Part shown: positions 3,195 to 52,600 of the stretch, one piece after another | Layout: each line of letters begins with the position of its first letter | Position numbering within the stretch: the first letter of the stretch is position 1 | Assembly: GCA_963924555.1 (NCBI GenBank) | Contig: OZ004590.1 | Span: forward strand, 5,014,001 to 5,078,000 | Direction of reading: 5' to 3' | Origin: Crambe crambe | Lineage: Eukaryota; Porifera; Demospongiae; Poecilosclerida; Crambeidae | DNA length: 64,000 bases | Notes under the pieces: generated by a model | Told to the model about the DNA's origin: nothing | Database searches by the model: none | What the model saw: only the letters and a program-made list of their open reading frames with translations | Position numbers and translations under genes: made by a program

Positions 3195-5583
3195 TCAATT
3201 ATCTGCTGTGGAATCATTTTTTTCCATGGTTGCCTTGTCGGAATCAAGTGACGATGAATCCACTAGTTGATTGGATACAATCTTAACATTCTCCAAAGCA
3301 TGACCCTGAACAGAATAGAGAGAAAGCTTAAAGGGACAGGATTACCATAAAATAAAAAGGTATAATATGCTGTAGCCAACATTGATATGTAAAGCTTCTT
3401 AGGGTGAAATCTAGGAAGTTAACATTGTACGTTTTTGACCATCACACAAACTCCACCTAACATCTTGGCTTCCTTTGCACTATTAACAAGCATACTTGTT
3501 TTTTTATGGCCATGAATATTACCCAAGATTATGAATACTACTGCAGATAGCATTATCACTCCTTTCCCCAGGGAATTATGGTACACACATAATAGAGTGA
3601 GTTTTAAAGTTATGGTTCGACATAATGACTTGATTACTTATACTCACTGAGCTATTTTCTTCTGGTATATTTATTTCAGACGCTAAGACTGGACTACTGA
3701 AATGATCGAAGCTGCTTGGGGCATCAGACGAATCACTCGGCCCTGTAAAATCATCACCACTATCGTCTTCATTCCCGAATCTCTCCTTTCGTCGAGTTGC
3801 TAGAAGTTGTGATATCATCTGCCGTCTATACGAAGAGTATATAAAGTAATGCCTGACTGACACATAGTAGAATCTATCCCAATAAGGTATACTTGACTCT
3901 ATACCACAATGAAAATAGACCTTGTGTTGATCATGAACTTTAAATCTTTATCATAACAAAAATGAGACAGATTCCTCCTAACTGGCTCTATACATGAATT
4001 ACTCACTTAGAATAGATATCATACTCTTTCGGTAACTCTGTCTCAAGCTGCTCCATTACAATGTTCTCCTCTATATCCAGTGGGTCATTTGCTTCGCTCA
4101 CAAGCTCTGTAATGACGCGAAAAGCATGAAGTAATCACCTATTCTTTTTAAAGCTCACCATAATTATAAGCTCCACTAGCACTACCCACAAACTATGAAC
4201 AATCCCTATGACTATACTGCACACAAGGACATGGCTCTCTCCTATAACACAAAAGCACAACCTACCTACACACACACCTTGCAAAACATCAAAAAAAAAA
4301 AAAGTCCTGTTAACAAATGGGAACCATTCAGAAAAAATGACCGCAAGTGTTAGGATACATTACTAATACTAAACCCAAAGCCAGAAAAGTTTATATTGAT
4401 AACAAATCAACTTTAAATTCAAAATAACCAGTTATTTCTTGCTTGTGGCTAACTTTTTGGCTATACTTAATATATCCACTACATATTACTTCTTATCTTT
4501 TTTTCTATTTTTTCTTTGGCTTCTTTCTGAAGTTTTTTTTCCTGTAGATACAAAAGCATTACCCCACGACCAATACAACAGAGCATACCAACTTACTGCT
4601 TCGATTGCTTCTTTTGTTGGTTTCGGTGCATTTGGAAATGTCACAAGAACTACACTCATATTGTCTCTACTATTCTGTATGTAAGAAGAACAAAGAGGTG
4701 TGCATTAGTTAGAAGGGAAAGATGCACAAGTTGAGTACAAGCCATTCCTCACCTTGTTAAGACATGTATCAATCAGTGAGCTACATATTTGAGCCAGATC
4801 ATCTGTTAGTTCGAGTTGGTGCAGTACGTATTCTGCCACAGCTTCGTTTGTCATCACATCAAAGATTCCATCACACGCAAGTAGCAAAAATTGGTCCTCT
4901 TTATGATCTCTCTCTAATATTTTCATTTCAGGCTCGGGTGAAACCAGCTGCTCTACGTCTTTAATAGCTTGACTTCGTTTGTAGTCAAAGTCTCCAAGTG
5001 CTCTGGACACTGCTAATGATCCATTGACTCTCTGCATCATCACAGTACCACCAGCTTTCTCAATTCGATTTCTTTCTGTGTCAATATAGGGCTTGTGATC
5101 TATGGTGACATAGCTCACTTTGTCTTTCCGACAAAGGACTCCTCTTGAATCCCCACAGTTTCCCCATATGATTTCATTTGGTGTTATCATGACAACTATT
5201 GCCGTTGTACCACTTCGATCCTCTCCATTTTGCCATGGGTCTTGATTTTTCAATTCAGAGTCAAGAGCAAGAAAACCATCGTGGATTGCACCAGAGATTA
5301 GGTCTTTCTCCTCCTTACTACTTTTTTGGTCTTTTTTATACTCTTTTATAATGGTGGCTAGCAAGTGTTCTGAACAGTACTTTGCTACTTTTGGTCCCGC
5401 ATGACCATCAAACACACCAAAGAAGCAGTACTCCTTGTTGATGGCTAAAGAAGTGTCACATACATGTGCATCTTCCATTTCCATTCTCCACCCCTGCATG
5501 GCTGAGACTCCATACCTAATCCCACAACCCTCCCCACTAGCAGTATGCTTGTCTGTCTTGGGTTTTTCTAGAAAAGCTCCCAT
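3195..5583 (-). CDS. PPM1A/B-like: PP2C-type Ser/Thr phosphatase, PPM1A/PPM1B orthologue
   Basis: Five exons in consistent phase: 5583-4753, 4674-4597, 4104-4007, 3825-3648 and 3305-3195. The protein dephosphorylates Ser/Thr residues using Mn/Mg; vertebrate PPM1A/B act on SMAD, MAPK, AMPK and IKK pathways in cytosol and nucleus. Seen motifs: GWRMEMEDAHV, VFDGHAGPKVAKYC, GTTAIVV, NCGDSRG, SLAVSRALGDF, LLACDGIFDV and, across the first intron, SRDNMSVVLVTFPNAPKP. These supply the metal-binding aspartates. The frame is open 16 codons further to 5631, but the second ATG gives MGAFLEKPKTDKH, matching the family N-terminus including the myristoylated Gly2, so I take 5583. The third exon uses the second AG of an AGAG acceptor to keep phase. 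The tail is acidic/Ser-rich and divergent from vertebrates. Confidence 0.9.
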
Positions 5584-5924
5584 CCTAGTGCCTGTGTCCT
5601 GTTCTTCTTGTTTCTTCGTTATAACCTTCACTAGCGAACGACTCTAAGTTCTGTGAAGGTAAATAAAAAGTTCAATATTCAGCCTCAATGGATTATAGCT
5701 AGCTTAGCTAGCGACAGCAACATGCAACACTACCGTAAAGTTACGAATCCTTCAGACCAAGTCTTGCAGTGACTCACTTAGTATTGTGAACGTTTAGAGA
5801 CTTACTGAATTCTATCTCGCATACACTGTGCAGGTCAGCATTATATTTTCAAAAATCTTATGACACTTCCACGGGCAGCCATTTTTTGGAATAAAAATAG
5901 CTGCGCGCATGCTCCGTCATCATT

Positions 5925-16294: not shown

Positions 16295-32174
<15,880 letters not shown>

Positions 32175-32416: not shown

Positions 32417-35400
32417 ATGCCTAAAGAATTGCTCTTTTGCTGCCTCTTCCTGACAGGTTTTCTCATCTCCAGCTGCAGTGCACAACTGTCTCCATGTAAG
32501 TTCATAGCTTTATAAGCTACACTTTGGTATTACCAGATGCAAACAAATTATGATATTGCTAGTTGGCTGGCTACATCTAGTAAAAATTCTACAGCTGATC
32601 ACTTAATAATTATATATATGACCAGCTATTCAATTAAGATATTTATCTAGTTAGCTATAATTGGCATAAAACCAATAATCTCTTGGGTGTACACTAGCTA
32701 CAATATCTGATCGACTGCTAAGGGCTGAAATAACCCAACACACCTGGATGGTGGTTTTGAGGGGCATATTATGGTGTGCCACTGTTACCCTGTTGTCTGC
32801 ACTGCAGGTTAAGCAAAGATAGCTAGCATGCAAATAATGTAAACATGATATGGCATTTTGCAATGCATCAGGGATTCAGGACTGAATGATTTTTCTTCAG
32901 TAATTTTATTTTAGTCTATTTTAATTTCATGCAGCTTTTTGTCTCAATGGGAATCAAATTCTGGTTGGTGTTCCTTTCCACTTGATGGATACTGGAGACT
33001 CACCAACGGCTGCCGAGGCTGAGACAAACCTAAACTGCAGCTTCTCAACTAGAAATTCGATGCAGACAATTGCAGAGGACAAATGGACTCGTGATGGTAT
33101 GAGATAATGTCTTGATTACACCAGTCATGCACTCCAATGAAAGCTTCCTCTCCTCTACGCTCGCTGTCTGTGTGTCACCCTGACTACCTATTTTATTGCT
33201 ACAACTAATTACGCTGCTTTACAATGTAGTTTACAATGCAGCCACAGATGATAACCTAAACCATAGCGGCAGGAAGCTTGCTCTATGAGCATATACTAGT
33301 TAGAATAACATTGAAACCAAATTAACAGATTCCCCATTATTATCATTATTATTACTACTTCCACAGCTTCAGGCTACACTTTCTTTGCAACTGGGAACTA
33401 CACTTACAACTGTGGCAAGAGCAGGACTGGGAACTTGACAGTTGTTTCAGCACTGTACACCATTTCACTTTGCAAAGACTGCCCTTCTGAGAGAAGCCAG
33501 TTTTACGTCACAATTGGTGACAGTGTACAGTGGGTGATACCTGATTCTGAAGTTGCACAGGTAGACTGTGTCATGAGTTTACGCAGTGAGGATGGAACTG
33601 AATTGATGATGTTTCCAACTAGTAAGGAAGTGTAGGCAAACGATTGCATTGTACTTGTGTTTATATCACAATAGTGCTTGAGAACTGCTAATTGGTATTA
33701 ATATCCTATCTTGCAATTGGCTGCATGGAAATTCAATTAAAGCACTGTAGTGGGAATTTGGCAGTTTTATGGTTTTATGTTGCTGTAAATACCTTTTAAT
33801 ACAGCTGTACCAACTGTACATTCATTACACTTCAGTCATCCACACAATTCTCTATCCTTGTAGATGTCACAAAGCATCAATTTCAGGAAGCTGGGAGGTT
33901 TGTGCTGATATGCAAAGACGATGCTTCTATTAATGCAACAATAGTAGTCCGATCGCGAAGTAACACCACCACTAGAGAGGAAGTGGCATCTAATAGATTT
34001 GGGCCTCTGCTCTACACCCACGTGACTATCATGGCTGTTACCTTCGGTGTTCTCTTCCCAATTGCAGTGTTTCTACAATACCACAAAATATCTCTTGCCT
34101 ATAAGATTATCCTTCCAATCACCATTGGTCTAGCAGTCTGTGGGTTCATAATGGTTGTGGCTTATGTCCAGTTAGCTGGGAGGAAACACTTTGGGTTTTT
34201 GATCCATGGGGTTGTTGGACTCGTCCTGCTGATTCTGACAGTGCTGGGCATGCCACTTCTGTTGCTCCACAAGAAAACAAGAATTTACCACTTCAGAGTT
34301 GGTCACATCGTTGCATTCTTTGGGATGGCACAAGTGTTATTGGTAAGTATGGATAGGTTTCATACTAGTTGGAGTTAAAATTACTCTCTTTTTTTCCAGG
34401 GCTTGGGGATTCTGCGTGTGCCCATGCCAGTTGCCCTTTCCTTATGTGCTGTGTATGGACTCATACTCGTGGTCATCGTCTCTTTCTACATTTTCTATCC
34501 TGCAAAGAACACCGGCAGTTTGAATTTGAAAGATGCACAGAAGAATGGATCTGTGGAGATGGCATCACGAAATGGATCCCTTGGAAGCTGCAATAAAGAG
34601 TCATACAGCAGCTTACAGAATGCCACTGGAAGAGGCCCCCAGCCACTGAAACAGAACATCATTAGTGAGGATAGAATGGTGCAGCTGAGAAAGAAGAGCT
34701 TGGACTTTGCAGAGGCTCAAAGACAGATGAAGCAGCTCAACGAAGAGTTAGGACTCAAGCACCAGCTTGCAAGAGAGCTGGAAGAAGAGGAAGAAGAACG
34801 ATTGAAGGATATAATGGATGAAAAGAAAGAACGAAAAGACTCGAAACCTGATCAAGACTTGGCCAGTAGTGAAGACTCTCATGCAGCTTTCAACTTGTCT
34901 TCTCCTGATCTAGACGAAGATCCTTTCCCATCTATAGATCGTAAGTTGTACAAGAAAGACTCAAGCTCAGAGGATGAATATGATAAAAAGGAAGAAGAAG
35001 ATATTGACGATCATGCTCTTTATAAGGAAAGTCTATTGAACAGAATTCAAAATTCTCCAAGAGGAATTAATAGAGCTCGTACTTTCAACCATCATGGTGG
35101 TTCTGGGGATAAAGGCAGGGATTCAGATAACGATTCAGAAAGGGGCGGTTCCTTGAGAATCACCAGACACTCCAAACGAGCCAAGGTGAAGCTGGATCAC
35201 ATTTTCAACCAGCCAGACTTGGCCGAAGTGAGCCAAGAACCTCCTTCCTTCAACATCACGCCATCCACTCCTCCTGTGCACCACAAAATGATGGAGTATT
35301 CGGTGCCAGATGACAGCAGCACGACCGCACTACTTTCCAACACCAGCTTCGATAGTTCACAGGGGATCACACCGTCAGTTACTGAGCAAAGAAACATTCC

Positions 35401-36662
35401 ACCTGTTAATGCTGGGAGACGACAACGCAAAGCTGCAGTCATACCACCAATACTCACTGCTCCCATATTAGAAGGGGAAGGCCCCCCGGGGTGCCCCTTT
35501 CATCAGAGTAATTTAGTGGTTGGTGGGAAATCGCCCTCCCCAAGACCCTGTCGTCGAGGAATCTCTCCAACTGGCGTCTCATCGGGAGAAGACGGCACTT
35601 CGCCGAAACCCAGAAAGAAAAAAGTGAGTGTGGCTCAGATCGAAGCGACTGTGGTACCTCCCACGCCCGTTTCTCTCCAACCTCCTTCGCACTTGTCACG
35701 TTCGTCAAGTTTCAGCACCTTACGAGACCACCGAGATGCCTTTGCCGATAATGCCTTTCGGTCCGTCATGCAAATATCCCAAGACGCCATCGTGTGTGCT
35801 AATAGTGTTGGGGATATCGTCTTCTGGAGTGTGGGGGCTTGTAAGATGTTTGGCTACACTCCTGGAGAAGCCATTGGTAGTTCTCTGGAGGTGAGGGTTT
35901 GTTGTTTTTTTAAAAATCTGTTCTGTTAAACTTGTAAGCGGCATTTTTGAATGTTTGGAGTGGGTTGAATAGTGTATTATAGCCAATGGCAATCACTAAA
36001 ATCATGATTATTAGCTAGCTAATTAAATATTTATCTTACCATGTGGTTTATCAACTTAAGAAGCCAAAAAAAGTGTACAATTAATTTAAGAAGCTTGAAG
36101 TGTGATTAATAATAGTTGAAGCCCTAGGGATGTCCATTTGGTGAGGAAGCCCCCGCTAATCAATGGAAGCCAAAGGAGTAATGGTCCATTTAGTGAGGAA
36201 GCCCTTCCTTCGAATTGACAAGACCTCTAGCAAATAACAAACACTTCATAATAGCTAATAAATGGCTGATAGATCACTCCCACTGCTAAGGGTGCAAAGT
36301 TTACATCATATAACCTGTCTTGTTCCTTTGGTCTACAGATGATAATCCCGCAAAGCTTCAAGGAGAAACATCGTAAGGGAATTAATGACCGCACTGAACG
36401 GACCATGAAGTATATTCGAAAGCACCAGTACACGCCTGAGGAACACAAACATGCTCGTCTCTATGCCGTCCGTGGGATGACAAAGGGCGGTCACGAGTTA
36501 CCTGTGGAAGTGAATGTCACCAGTTTTGTACTCGACGGAGAGATGTTTTACACCGGAGTCATCTCTGAGATGTCCAAGAGTGGCACTGGTTCAAGGAGAG
36601 ACTCATTCTCGAGTACGAGTGATCTGAATGAGATTGCACTGAAGCAAAGAGTGAGTAGAGTA

Positions 36663-36727
<65 letters not shown>

Positions 36728-39700
36728 TTTTATTGATTATGTTCGCCCTCAGGCTCTGGCTGTCGGTGCTCAGATGAAGATGGCCCACAACTTCCGCAGT
36801 GCCGAGCACATTTCTCAGCGTGAGCTGGAAAGAGTGCTAAAGGGTAGCCTGGGAACCAGCTTTGAAGTGGACTCTTACCAAATGGAGCAGATGATTAGTG
36901 GGATCATGAAGGTGAGACCCTGCGATAAGTGATTTGTTCGTAGATACGGCAGTTTGTAGTCTCGTACCATTTGAAAACAATAACAGAACCGTATTGTTAT
37001 TGCATATCACATCTATCCATATACAGGCTGGAGACCCAGAGGAAACAGGTGTGATATCCTTTGTGAAGTTGATTCAACTTCTCTCCAAACACCAACTGTA
37101 CATTAGTGAGTCTGGTCTGATAGTCCGCTATGGTAAGACCAAGGGCAGTGAGAGCTCCGCCAACCAGAACCGACGCCAGCTGGTAAAGGAGAAGATGCTA
37201 CAGTTCCTCTACAGCAATGCAGTTAGCCTGATATGGATCCTGTTCTACGTGATTCTCAACTTGATACTCGTTGCTGTTGGAGTTGGAGTACACAGCCGTG
37301 ACGCAAGCTACACCAGTCAGTGGACAATGTGGGCATATGGCACTGGACCTGTTCTCAGTATGAACTGCGTTCTCTTACTTCTCCCAATGTTAAGTTCACT
37401 AATACATGCAATGCGAAACAGCAGCTGGATGAATAACGTAAGTTAGTTAGTCAAATTCTACGATAATAATAAATTATATTACACCTCCTTTTGTACATAT
37501 TAGGTATTTCCATTGAAAAAGTCCATCCTATTTCACATCATAATCTCCATGGGCTTGCTCTTTTGGGTGGTCATCCATCTCCTCACTCACCTTGTCTCCT
37601 TCGGCCTGGACAGAGAACGAAATCCCGACTACGGGAGAGCCATTATCAAACACCTCATGCCAACCATCACTGGCATTATTGTGCTCATCATCTTCATAAC
37701 GATGGGGGTGAGTAGCATTAAACCCCTCAGAAAACTCCTTCAGTTCATTCCGTTCAACATCACCCACTGGATCGGAAGTGGAGTTTTTTACATACTGCTG
37801 CTGGTACATGGTATCAATTACTGGAATCCATCATTCTGGAAATGGCTGCTCCCAGCTGTCATCATCTTCGCCCTGGAGCGAATCTACAGGCACATCATCA
37901 TCAAAACAGAGAAGATCAATATCAAATCTGCTGGCAGGTATGACAGTGTATCCAGAACGGCCATCGTGGAGTTCGACAGGCCAAAATACTTTGAGTTTGA
38001 GCCTGGGCAATACATACTTCTAAATATTCCGAAAATCGGTGAGTCCTTGCTTTTTATCATTATGATCACATTGTGGCTAGCAAGTAGATGGTTTAAAAGA
38101 AGTTGATTTTTATACTTCCTTTTGTAAACGTAGGTTACTTTGAGAGACAGCCATGTCAGATTAGCTCCAGTCCTAAAGACGAGGTCAGTACACAGCTAAT
38201 TCTATTCTCTATTATTTTTGATAACTCTAAGCATTGAATAGTGACTACAAAATTATTTTCAGCAAAAAAAAAAAAAAAATACTGTCTTTGACTTCTCCCC
38301 TTTCCTCCTTCAGAAATTGACAATTCACATTCCCTTCTCAAATGATGTCTGGTTCAAGAAGGCATTCGAGTACCTGAAGCAGAACCCTCACAACATGCCA
38401 CAGCCTGGTCAGCAAAACAATCGAGGAGGACGTGAAAGGAAGAACGCAAAACCCACCGATGAGCAGACTACGGATGACCCGGCCAACAGATTCCCAGCTT
38501 CTTTCTCTGGACCGTAAGTAGTAAGGGATACATACGTGACCTTAAAAATAGTGTAAGGAAATGAAGTGGTACAGAGTCAGTTGTGGTTAACCATAACAAG
38601 CATTGGTCACTCAACCACTTGAAAACTTAATCTCGTTAGTCTGTGTGATATCACACCTGTGATAACCACACTTGTGATAACCACACTAGTGACACTTTTT
38701 TTTTTGCTTTCCCTCCTATAATAGATACGGTCCTACATGCAACTCAAAATTCATCTTCAAGTACAAAATCTCTACAGTGGTTTGTGGAGATGATGGACCC
38801 CACGCAGCTAAGGCAATAATCAAGAAATTCCTCGACTATAGGAAGGCAGTTACATGTCACTGCGGGTAAGGAAGTCAATTCAGAGAGAGTAATGTTCCAC
38901 ACTTTCACTACACGTTAACGAGGGCACAGTGGTAGCACACATCCTGTGACTTATAAGTCATCTTATTTTGTTTTCATAATTAGAGGCAGAGAGGGAAGCG
39001 TTATGTTAGATTTTAAGCTGTGCACACGTTGTCCACACGTTGTCCAATGACAGACTTATTGTACCCAAGTTAAGTAGCATCATTTCAGCATTCCCAAAGG
39101 AAGTGGATCATTCCAAGTAAACATAAAATCATGATCAATTATGGATGATGACTTCAACAGAACACCTAACAATAGAGGACATAGCTAGATAATAATATAG
39201 CCATTATTATTGTTAGCATGAACCCACTAAACTTGAGATAATTCACTCCATCTCATTTGTATTCGTATATAGGTGCCAACCAGTTCTTTCTAAGCTCTAC
39301 TTTGTCTGGGTCATTCCAACTGGTAATGATTTTGAGGTAAGATGATGTCATTTTATTTTTATTTTTTATTTTTTTATGTTCACTTCAAAGCAAAAAAACT
39401 TAAACCTTATTCTCTCTTTGCAGTGGTTTACTGACTACCTCTCTGATCTTTGTGAGGATGAGCATCTCCATCGTTACCTGGATATTCGTGTATTCTTGAC
39501 GAACATTGACTCAGCTCCCGATGAGCTGGCATCCGCTCTCCTTCAGCTGGGGTTAAAGACAGCAGGGGACAAGGTTACAGTACGACGACCATCCCAGCCA
39601 CAGCTAAACAATCTTTATCACATGACTAGCTATGGACTGCCTGATTTCAATTCACTCTTAGATTGTGAGTTAGTGGAACTTTTGGCTAGAAGTGTGCATG

Positions 39701-40057
39701 CTAATCAAAATGAGTGAAATCTGAGACCTGAGAAGAGTGTTTGTAATGCATTTTTAAAATTATTATTTTTATTTTACTGGCCATTTTGGTGCACAATTTG
39801 TATTAACTATGTTCTATGGAGATTGCGTATGCATGCAAAATAGTCTGTTTATCATCATTTTTTTCCTGTCTAATAATAATTATACAGACATAGCCTCCCA
39901 TCACTCGTCACTGTGGGTGGATAAACCCGTTGCCGAGTTTGGAGTCTTCACAGTGGGAGAACTCAAACACACCATGAACAAAGACTTACTCACAGCCGTC
40001 AAAAAGACCTCCAAGCCAGGACAGCTCCATTTCAAACAGCACAAGATCATACTCTAA
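32417..40057 (+). CDS. Composite transmembrane redox protein: ectodomain, b561-like, PAS, NOX-like
   Basis: Fifteen exons with agreeing phases: 32417-32495, 32935-33096, 33367-33621, 33864-34342, 34400-35890, 36339-36650, 36753-36911, 37027-37437, 37504-38038, 38134-38183, 38314-38513, 38725-38865, 39273-39336, 39424-39664, 39888-40057; 1,582 residues. 1-22: signal peptide (KELLFCCLFLTGFLISSCSA). 23-215: Cys- and N-glycosylation-rich ectodomain; its second half (VTIGDSVQWV ... AGRFVLICKDD) resembles a cupredoxin. 218-355: five helices resembling cytochrome b561, with His218, a third-helix HGVVG and a fourth-helix HFRVGH. 360-775: acidic, basic and Ser-rich linker. 775-900: PAS domain (FWSVGACKMFGYTPGEAIG, MIIPQSFKEKHRKG). 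927-1000: EF-hand-like helices without a canonical loop. 1035-1230: six NOX helices with haem His1127, 1141, 1204 and 1218. 1240-1582: dehydrogenase layout with QPCQ for HPFT and no GVTPF or CGPP. Topology is consistent: ectodomain outside, PAS and tail in cytosol. Function unknown. Confidence 0.85.
36666..36725. repeat. (GA)n microsatellite after a 5' splice site of the composite NOX gene
   Basis: About 29 GA units starting 18 bases after the donor at 36651, in transcript sense. The whole intron (36651-36752) is 102 bp, so the repeat is more than half of it. Confidence 0.95.
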
Positions 40058-49603: not shown

Positions 49604-52600
49604 CTAGATGAAAACCTTTGCAATGCCGTCGGCTCCAGCACTGGCAAAGAATGGTTCTGAAGAGTGGCATGTTACGTTGTATATAGCCTCGTCGAAATGT
49701 TTCCTATGTGCAGCTCCTATGTGCTGTATACACATCTTTGAGTCCATACTCCAGAATATCAGGGATCCATCATGACCTGTGGAAGTATAAAACATAATTG
49801 GTCCAGCAACAGTGGAACCTCCGTATAATGGACACACTTGGGACCCAGGCTTTTGTCCTTTGTACTCTGAATAATGGACACACTTGGGACCCAGGCTTTT
49901 GTCCTTTGTACTCTGAATAATGGACACACTTGGGACCCAGCCTTTTGAGTGATATGAGTGTGTATTTTTTGATCGTCCTTTTGTTGAGGTTTGTTCTCTT
50001 TCAGAGTCCTTTACCCTCTTCAGAGAATCTCCAACCCTATGAATGCATGTGGACTTACTTCCAGAAAGGAGATAGAGGCCATGTGGATCAAGAGCCAACC
50101 CAGTCACTGCATCTGTGTGAGCTGTTGTCGAGTACATCACTTTCCCTATAAAAAATGAATCAGTTAAACCATCAGGTATTCTTTGAAGAACACTTACCAG
50201 AATTGACATCGTAGAATCTGATGTATTTGTCTTCATGGGCACTGACAACAACAGGCAGAGTTGGATGACACACCACTTTGTTGATCTGTGTTTTAGGTGT
50301 TCCATCTGCAGAGGGTAGATCTGTAAATACACTCTTAATGCACCACTGGGGGGCCCCCCCTGGGATACTCTTCTGATATTTAAACAAATTGCCATTGGAT
50401 AAACTTACCGTATGTGGTACCACTGTCCAAGTTTACAACAGACTGTCCTGTCTCCAGGTCAAAGGTCATAACTTTAGCACCCGAGTATGATACCACCATT
50501 TGGTGTAGGTTTGTCCACACAAAGTCCACTGATGTGGGATTCCCAAATCCTGAACACCAGAGAGATTACAAATCATGGGATAGGCACTGTATTCTTATTA
50601 AAGCACACCATCCTATTGAGTACTAATTTTGAAAGGTACTTACTCTGCTCAGTCCTAAACTCTCTTATTTGAGGACTTGTCTGATGGTGGTTCCAGAGAC
50701 GACAAGAGCCATCAGCTCCACATGAGAGAACAAACCCAGTAGTGGGATGAACAGCCAAGTCCCACACTGCATCTGTGTGACCTTGCAACACTCCTTGATG
50801 AATGTCTGGATCTACAATCATAAAATTTAAGTCCTCAGTATGGTTCCAGACTGAAAGGTTAACTACAGCCTGCTGAGAGGCTGCAAGACTGCACCAACCA
50901 CTGTGAACTAGTAAGTCCTCCTTTCTTCCTTACCATAGCTTTCGAAGGGATCTTCACCCGAGTCCTCAGGTAATCGCCACACTCGTATCATACAGTCAGT
51001 GCTACCACTGAAACAGATGTCCCCTCCCAAACCAAAAGCAGTGCTCAACACCGGCCCTCTACATAAGAAAGAAGCCAGATGAGTCAATGAGCGGAAAGAA
51101 TATGGCACACTTTAATTACCTGTGTCCTCGGAATGTGTGATATGCCTCTACATCTACCAAAACTGATCTGAGGGAGTGAAAGAGCAAAGCATAAAGTGAA
51201 TATACAAATGTTTGCCAGTGTTTACAAGGCCAACCTTCTAGGATCCCTGGTTTTCTGTCTGGCCCGCAGCAGGTTCCAGAGCTTGAGTGTACAGTCCATA
51301 GAGCCAGTGATAACTATCTGGTCTGTGGGATGGAACCCGACAGACGACACCACATCGAAGTGACTATAAAACAGGATATCAGAGTACAAAGTACATCCTA
51401 ATAGAGTAATTTAGCTCAGGTATTGGGTGGCAGTTTGTACAGCATCAAATATGCGCAATATGCTCCGGGGCTTCATCATTAAATACTGTATAGCAGGAAA
51501 ATTTTCGTGGATTTCGTGGTTTTGAAAAAAATACATCATAAAAACTTTACCCCACAAAAATTCAGTATTTATCAAAATGCTACAATAACAATCTCCCTCC
51601 CCCTTCTTAAAAAAAAGGGGGGGGGGGAAGGGGATTAGTTGTTTATTTATCTAATGACTGGCACGCACCCTTGCAATGTGTAGTTCTGTTCCCACTTCCG
51701 AGAGCTCTCCACAGCTGAAATCTAATACAGGAGGAGAGGAAAAAGATTGTGAATCTTCAAGAAACCTAACCCATAACACTTGACTCTACTGCCGCTTCAA
51801 TACTTACATCAGGTTCAATAGAGATGACAGCCAAATTTCCCAGTACGTCAGGGATAACCACACCTCCTTCAGGTGTGATGTCTAAGTCATGAATTCCCTT
51901 TGGCCTTCTCCCAGGCAGTCGCATCATTCCCATCGATGAGGACGCAGGGGCCGAAGAATTTGCCGGTGCAGAATCTGAGGGCTTGGCCTGACCTTCAACC
52001 TGCTTCTTGTACTCCTCCATAAGCCCACGACTAGGACCTGATGATAGAATAATAATACATGTCTTCTCTGATTATGAAAGAAAAAAAATTACACATACGA
52101 TCAGTCTTTGGCTTCGGCCGTGGTTTATTCTTCTGATAAATATCTATTTGTTTTTGGATGAATTCATCACGACGAATGTCTTTGCTAGACTCGGGGTCTG
52201 AAGAGCCCTTCTGAAACTCATCCATAGCATCTTCCGTGAACATGGCATCGTCATTATTATCATTGACATTTCCTTCAAATAGGTAGTTCTGTGAAGTGTG
52301 CATATTAAAAGTGATGGCCTAGCCGTTATACAGTGTGCCCATTCAATAAGGTCAGCAATCACTTATCCACAATGAAGACATTTCTAAAAGCTTCCAAACT
52401 CTGAAGCTTTGTATACATTAATATTACGAGCAAAGTGACCTTATTGCACAGGTTTTTAGTGTCACATCAGCAGGACTCACCGGAGGAGCCGAGTTCCAGC
52501 CCCCATTTTCTCCTTCATCATCATCATCATCGTCATCATCTTCATCACTATCGTCTTCCTTGTCAAGGAACTTGAACTCATCACTGATGGCATTCACTTC

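Follow-up and report, generated by a model that had tools for sequence, protein, structure and literature searches.

The closest described relatives of the protein considered here are the DspNOX proteins, members of the NADPH oxidase (NOX) family whose architecture Hewitt & Degnan (2022) reported from four demosponges (PMC9524095). We analysed a 64,000-nucleotide stretch of the Crambe crambe genome (assembly GCA_963924555.1, contig OZ004590.1, positions 5,014,001 to 5,078,000 of the forward strand; here called the window and numbered from its first base), in which a gene at 32417-40057 on the plus strand is, as judged from its sequence, the C. crambe DspNOX. It is a real gene, a sponge-specific relative of the enzymes that generate reactive oxygen, and combines a known architecture with two residue-level surprises: its PAS domain resembles that of FixL and keeps a histidine at the haem-proximal position, and the FAD and NADPH sites of its NOX part are degenerate.

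Besides a PAS domain and a NOX core with the four-histidine HHHH motif, published DspNOX proteins contain an extended disordered region, an EF-hand region (absent in Ephydatia) and additional helices that match b561 or DUF2427, five in number but three in Ephydatia; the EF-hands were initially missed by hmmscan, and the authors describe the protein as EF-hand calcium sensitive (PMC9524095). The same source counts one DspNOX for each demosponge species (its Table 2), places two cupredoxins at the C-terminus of the Ephydatia protein, and reports two further DspNOX-like genes without HHHH in E. muelleri. The Crambe protein likewise unites b561/DUF2427 helices, a long linker, a PAS domain and an HHHH NOX core, although its EF loop is degenerate, in contrast to the published description of calcium sensitivity. 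The initial annotation of this locus knew of no animal NOX with PAS or b561 parts, a claim to novelty that fails because the architecture was published in 2022. What appears to be new lies at the residue level: in the portion of PMC9524095 available to us we found no FixL-like PAS with a proximal histidine, no degenerate FAD/NADPH sites and no EF loop lacking its last glutamate, and that portion does not discuss the residue-level state of the FAD/NADPH sites or of the PAS haem ligand. In the literature searched the name DspNOX is used by that paper alone, and a second NOX phylogeny, in its accessible part, contributed nothing further (PMC9421330).

Among solved structures NOX5 is closest to the NOX part (6e-34), with an alignment that begins in the EF-hand region and continues into the dehydrogenase and in which the FAD and NADPH-loop motifs of NOX5 are intact. 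The same motifs are intact in DUOX, unlike in the Crambe protein; the DUOX ectodomain is a peroxidase, and we know of no DUOX with a PAS domain. NOX5 differs from the Crambe protein in having no PAS, b561 or ectodomain part (the available part of PMC9524095, and general knowledge), and the DUOX plan is likewise different, with an ectodomain, a helix, a cytosolic EF region and then the NOX core (the available part of PMC3591440, and general knowledge). STEAP1 has a membrane haem and no NADPH domain of its own, and an outside electron supply is possible for it (PMC10659578); it belongs to a different family, and the Crambe protein still has a dehydrogenase, albeit a degenerate one.

Domain organization

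The protein comprises, in order, a signal peptide, an ectodomain, five b561/DUF2427-like helices, a linker of about 400 residues, a PAS domain, a vestigial EF-hand region and a NOX core, at the following positions of the window.

32935-33982, plus strand: ectodomain, residues 27-205 (exons 2 and 3 and the beginning of exon 4)
33998-34507, plus strand: five b561/DUF2427-like helices, residues 211-361 (exons 4 and 5)
34520-35734, plus strand: linker, residues 366-770 (all in exon 5)
35747-36581, plus strand: FixL-like PAS domain, residues 775-903 (exons 5 and 6)
36369-36371, plus strand: codon of His833, aligned with the haem-proximal histidine of FixL (His194 in S. meliloti, Sm; His200 in B. 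japonicum, Bj)
36807-37104, plus strand: EF-hand-like region, residues 945-1005 (exons 7 and 8), with the loop DPEETGVISFVK
37189-37905, plus strand: NOX transmembrane core, residues 1034-1250 (exons 8 and 9)
37534-37809, plus strand: haem-ligand stretch with the codons of His1127, His1141, His1204 and His1218, and also of His1145, Thr1172 and Gly1173
37918-40057, plus strand: dehydrogenase-type region, FAD_binding_8 and NAD_binding_6, through the stop codon
38148-38159, plus strand: QPCQ, residues 1300-1303, replacing HPFT of the FAD site
38783-38806, plus strand: CGDDGPHA, residues 1398-1405, replacing GAGIGITP of the NADPH loop
39953-39961, plus strand: VGE, residues 1549-1551, replacing CGP/CGS (aligned against DUOX1)

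Hydropathy places five helices in residues 211-361 and six in 1036-1249, in agreement with the five N-terminal and six NOX helices of the initial annotation, and the four haem-ligand histidines were found at the positions it had claimed. With the whole protein, Pfam returned FAD_binding_8 (8.1e-9), PAS (6.3e-8) and NAD_binding_6 (2.6e-5), each above its cut-off, together with DUF2427 (4.2e-4) below its cut-off; Ferric_reduct was absent from this listing. Isolated pieces gave Ferric_reduct (2.1e-9), above its cut-off, and DUF2427 (2.5e-5), narrowly above its own. The Pfam Cytochrom_B561 and cupredoxin models did not match the protein, nor did the EF-hand model match it whole or in pieces, so that of the families suggested earlier PAS and NAD_binding_6 were recovered in the whole protein and Ferric_reduct in a piece, with DUF2427 instead of Cytochrom_B561. 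Genome profile searches with Ferric_reduct and DUF2427 both match at this locus, and those with FAD_binding_8 and NAD_binding_6, for which the matches here are interrupted by introns, do not. NCBIfam at E≤1 gave nothing for either the NOX or the N-terminal part.

The linker is charged and probably disordered and cytosolic, as judged from position and composition rather than by computation; its position is that of the intrinsically disordered (IDP) region in DspNOX (PMC9524095). AlphaFold2 single-sequence models of exon 4 (mean pLDDT 66.4, pTM 0.48) and exon 9 (65.2 and 0.36) gave no PDB match with Foldseek at E≤0.001, and although the sequence of exon 9 is that of a NOX core, no NOX structure was among the best 50 of its 90 Foldseek matches. 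Models of such low quality neither support nor refute b561 or NOX folds. No pattern match to exon 9 was confirmed as a relative in prokaryotic genomes (0 of 83) or viral contigs (0 of 15).

The PAS domain is related to FixL

A PDB sequence search with the PAS domain (E≤0.1) returned 15 distinct sequences, of which 13 are FixL (7) or DosP (6), both of them haem-PAS oxygen sensors; two of the six DosP entries bear older names and are presumably DosP. The remaining two sequences belong to a multi-sensor histidine kinase and to a GGDEF protein, and at E≤10 FixL or DosP make up 13 of 18. NCBIfam gave the generic S-box model (1.8e-16), followed by FixL (8.9e-12), DosP (2.6e-5) and AtoS (0.0066). Identity to S. 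meliloti FixL is 30% (35/115), and His833 aligns with the proximal haem histidine and His858 with His214; the roles of the proximal histidine and of the distal residues in FixL are described in PMC10765370. Together these observations are good evidence of kinship to FixL. In prokaryotic genomes, 4 of 16 pattern matches were confirmed as relatives of this PAS domain, and these are bacterial, with 24-38% identity.

As a control, 30 bacterial PAS domains (30 of 247 matches, from three genomes) were aligned with S. meliloti FixL. A histidine stands at the FixL column in five of them: all four that score at least 120, a cut picked after the scores were seen, and 1 of the 26 that score lower, seven of which have no residue at that column. 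The sponge domain scores 141 and has the histidine. We regard this as fair evidence, not proof, that the PAS domain binds haem via His833, and several points weigh against it. The distal Arg220 of FixL (Arg214 in Sm) is replaced by Tyr864 and the distal Ile215 by Lys859, and the proximal histidine is followed by an insertion of about 11 residues. When the control set is re-aligned to the sponge PAS domain, 6 of 30 have the histidine, thus including two low scorers; the cut is post hoc, and any of the 30 control domains may or may not carry haem. FixL and DosP, the closest solved PAS domains, share the retained proximal histidine with the sponge protein, which departs from them in the distal tyrosine and the insertion and has no attached kinase.

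A conserved haem core with altered nucleotide sites

The full HHHH motif is present (His1127/1141/1204/1218). The histidines of its second pair (1204-1218, window 37765-37809) have 13 residues between them, versus 12 in NOX2 and NOX5 as aligned. A spacing of 13 follows the rule for ferric reductases (FRE), for which the literature searched yielded no confirming passage, and FRE membership was considered and rejected because the NOX signature residues are kept, as His1127, His1145, Thr1172 and Gly1173. These correspond to His-101, His-119, Thr-178 and Gly-179 in NOX2 numbering (Zhang et al. 2013, PMC3591440). The EF-hand region aligns with the EF-hands of NOX5, and its loop DPEETGVISFVK lacks the last glutamate, with lysine at position 12 (compare DADGNGAITFEE in NOX5).

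All three nucleotide-site motifs are altered in the Crambe DspNOX. Each of the four further NOX genes detected in the genome (one NOX5-like, one NOX2-like and two DUOX-like, labelled by resemblance) keeps H[PS]FT, G[AG]GIG[VI]TPFASIL and CGP, and the motifs are also intact in NOX5, NOX2 and DUOX1 to the extent covered by the alignment. This NOX gene set is unlike those of all four species in Table 2 of PMC9524095, where the counts include isoforms and fragments. The two DUOX-like genes lie in tandem (C20:3014059-3023772), with HSFT for HPFT at the FAD site and an intact NADPH loop.

The human NOX2 substitution P415H abolishes NADPH binding (PMC9674757), and the position of Pro415 is occupied by Ala1405 in the Crambe DspNOX. 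In NOX2 the FAD ring is lined by Pro339, Phe340, Thr341 and Arg356, and the substitution T341K keeps FAD from being taken up (PMC13296129); the counterparts of these four residues are Pro1301 (unchanged), Cys1302, Gln1303 and Pro1318. The NAD_binding_6 match covers model positions 34-136 and leaves out 1-33. On these grounds the protein is probably unable to use NADPH unaided. Pointing the other way, the FAD domain is largely conserved (PGQYILLNIP, ISSSP) and FAD_binding_8 and NAD_binding_6 still exceed their cut-offs, because of which cofactor binding may be weak or altered rather than lost; moreover, the altered motifs were read from this one DspNOX sequence and may be shared with its relatives or confined to this lineage.

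Proposed function and alternative explanations

The reading we favour, with a probability of roughly 0.5, is that the Crambe DspNOX is a two-haem membrane protein derived from a NOX, that it carries a gas-responsive haem-PAS domain, and that, with its own NADPH entry compromised, it is either fed by a partner or acts as a sensor. The protein would sit in the membrane with a secreted-type ectodomain outside and a b561-like five-helix unit, followed by the cytosolic linker, PAS domain and EF region and then the two-haem core. The PAS domain would bind haem through His833 and read oxygen (or NO/CO), and its state would alter the attached NOX core. The core retains the ligands for both haems, and its FAD/NADPH pocket lacks the canonical residues; with these gone, electrons might come from a partner reductase or a diffusible reductant, a route demonstrated to be possible for STEAP1 (PMC10659578), or else the core might serve mainly as a sensor or scaffold. 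We suggest only tentatively, and with some doubt, the more specific idea of an animal FixL-type haem-PAS oxygen sensor in a NOX-derived protein without NADPH entry of its own, in which the two-haem core is fed from elsewhere or senses and its state depends on the very gas that is usually the substrate of NOX enzymes. The initial annotation had proposed a transmembrane redox relay in which PAS controls, or reads out, electron flow; the FixL-like PAS with its proximal ligand and the retained NOX haem ligands agree with this, and the degenerate FAD/NADPH and EF-hand sites and the uncertainty over one of the four b561 histidines do not.

In PMC9524095 DspNOX is classed as an active, calcium-regulated, NADPH-driven superoxide generator, in which PAS and b561 parts would be regulatory and the divergent motifs would still bind FAD and NADPH. 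The retention of HHHH and of the signature histidines, threonine and glycine, and the two dehydrogenase matches above their cut-offs, are what would be expected of such an enzyme, but three nucleotide-site motifs have changed that every other NOX gene found in this genome keeps intact, the NAD_binding_6 match is truncated, and the EF loop has lysine at position 12 with no Pfam EF-hand found, and we consider this explanation unlikely for the Crambe protein. Less likely still is a pseudo-oxidase whose NOX part transfers no electrons and acts as a membrane scaffold or decoy carrying the PAS signal: the degeneracy of the FAD, NADPH and EF-hand sites would fit it, as would the two E. muelleri DspNOX-like genes that lack HHHH (PMC9524095), but the four haem histidines and the NOX signature are all kept in Crambe, which suggests that haem still matters.

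Gene structure

The fifteen phase-consistent exons proposed in the initial annotation were rebuilt as it had described; separated by 14 GT-AG introns of consistent phase, they encode 1,582 residues followed by a stop codon.

32417-32495, plus strand: exon 1, ATG and signal peptide by eye (residues 1-26; hydrophobic segment 3-25)
32935-33096, plus strand: exon 2, ectodomain
33367-33621, plus strand: exon 3, ectodomain
33864-34342, plus strand: exon 4, ectodomain in its first part, then b561/DUF2427-like helices
34400-35890, plus strand: exon 5, last b561-like helix, linker and first half of PAS
36339-36650, plus strand: exon 6, rest of PAS
36651-36752, plus strand: intron 6, 102 nt, divisible by 3 and free of stops, (GA)n repeat
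36753-36911, plus strand: exon 7, start of EF-hand-like region
37027-37437, plus strand: exon 8, end of EF-hand-like region and start of NOX core
37504-38038, plus strand: exon 9, NOX core including the haem-ligand codons
38134-38183, 38314-38513 and 38725-38865, plus strand: exons 10, 11 and 12, dehydrogenase-type region
39273-39336, 39424-39664 and 39888-40057, plus strand: exons 13, 14 and 15, dehydrogenase-type region to the stop codon

One donor is GTCAGT and the remainder are of GTAAG, GTGAG or GTATG type; G+C is 0.47 in exons versus 0.35 in introns. The frame is not due to chance, because the joined exons hold one stop (the final codon), compared with 76 and 93 in the two alternative frames and 57-77 per frame in the 2,892 bases of the introns. 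Exon 5 is an uninterrupted frame of 497 codons that runs from the last b561 helix into PAS, the exon 5/6 splice falls inside PAS with the FixL alignment spanning it, and the end of PAS and the EF-hand region share the open frame 36273-36932 because intron 6 has no stop; homology to NOX5 begins in exon 7 and extends into exon 15. A single gene from the helices through the NOX core, as first annotated and as supported by Pfam, the continuity of exon 5 and the FixL and NOX5 alignments, is likely because every exon junction over this span falls within a recognised domain and adjoining domains share open frames. Two adjacent genes (ectodomain with b561, and PAS with NOX) or a wrong gene model are very improbable: the model was read from genomic sequence alone, there are polyA-like hexamers in introns 5 and 8 and exon 5, and exons 1-3 have no homology support, but the frames and alignments just described bridge each domain boundary from the last b561 helix to the NOX part, and four other sponges have the identical domain order (PMC9524095).

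Exons 1-3 are supported by reading frame and splice sites alone. No second DspNOX copy was found in the 143-Mb genome with the NOX part, the ectodomain plus b561 part or PAS as queries and with the best candidates scored. If retained, intron 6 would encode an (RE)n repeat; a similar (RE)n run is present in an open frame at 22157-22735 on the minus strand of the window.

Ectodomain and N-terminal helices

Neither Pfam nor PDB gave a convincing match to the ectodomain, the cupredoxin families included; a weak match to CPAP (E 0.067) was taken as chance. The ectodomain had been called Cys-rich, and does have seven cysteines at residues 29-182, a modest enrichment. It is perhaps formed of two cupredoxin-like halves, because two repeats can be discerned by eye, with TGNYTYNC and AGRFVLIC ahead of the final strand and without the usual copper ligands, and two cupredoxins are reported for the Ephydatia protein (PMC9524095).

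In the five-helix unit, His218, His280 and His308 correspond by eye to histidines of the canonical b561 of the same genome; the fourth b561 histidine is His239 in one alignment and is replaced (Tyr245) in another. The genome search with Cytochrom_B561 gave one match, located elsewhere than at DspNOX. The pairwise score against b561 is 66, compared with a shuffled mean of 39, and this kinship is weak on its own because 3 of 500 shuffles reach 66.

Neighbouring genes

Exons of a HEATR5-like gene are present at 17623-21187 on the minus strand (HEAT_HEATR5A 1.7e-31, HEAT 2.4e-6). By eye this gene perhaps extends to about 32190, some 240 bases from the DspNOX ATG and head to head with it; the exon-like frame closest to that ATG (31776-31991) has no Pfam match. 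Other frames, all on the minus strand, encode a PP2C phosphatase (4705-5643, 3e-70), a PTB/PID-domain protein (532-1995, 4.7e-7) and a WD40 protein (49604-50404, 6.2e-9).

Implications

The degenerate NADPH site is a caution that counts of NOX genes made by HHHH or Pfam alone may include proteins that do not produce superoxide. If the PAS domain binds haem, sponges would have a single protein that combines a direct sensor of oxygen or another gas with a NOX-type core, and such a sensor would stand beside the transcription-factor route known in other animals.

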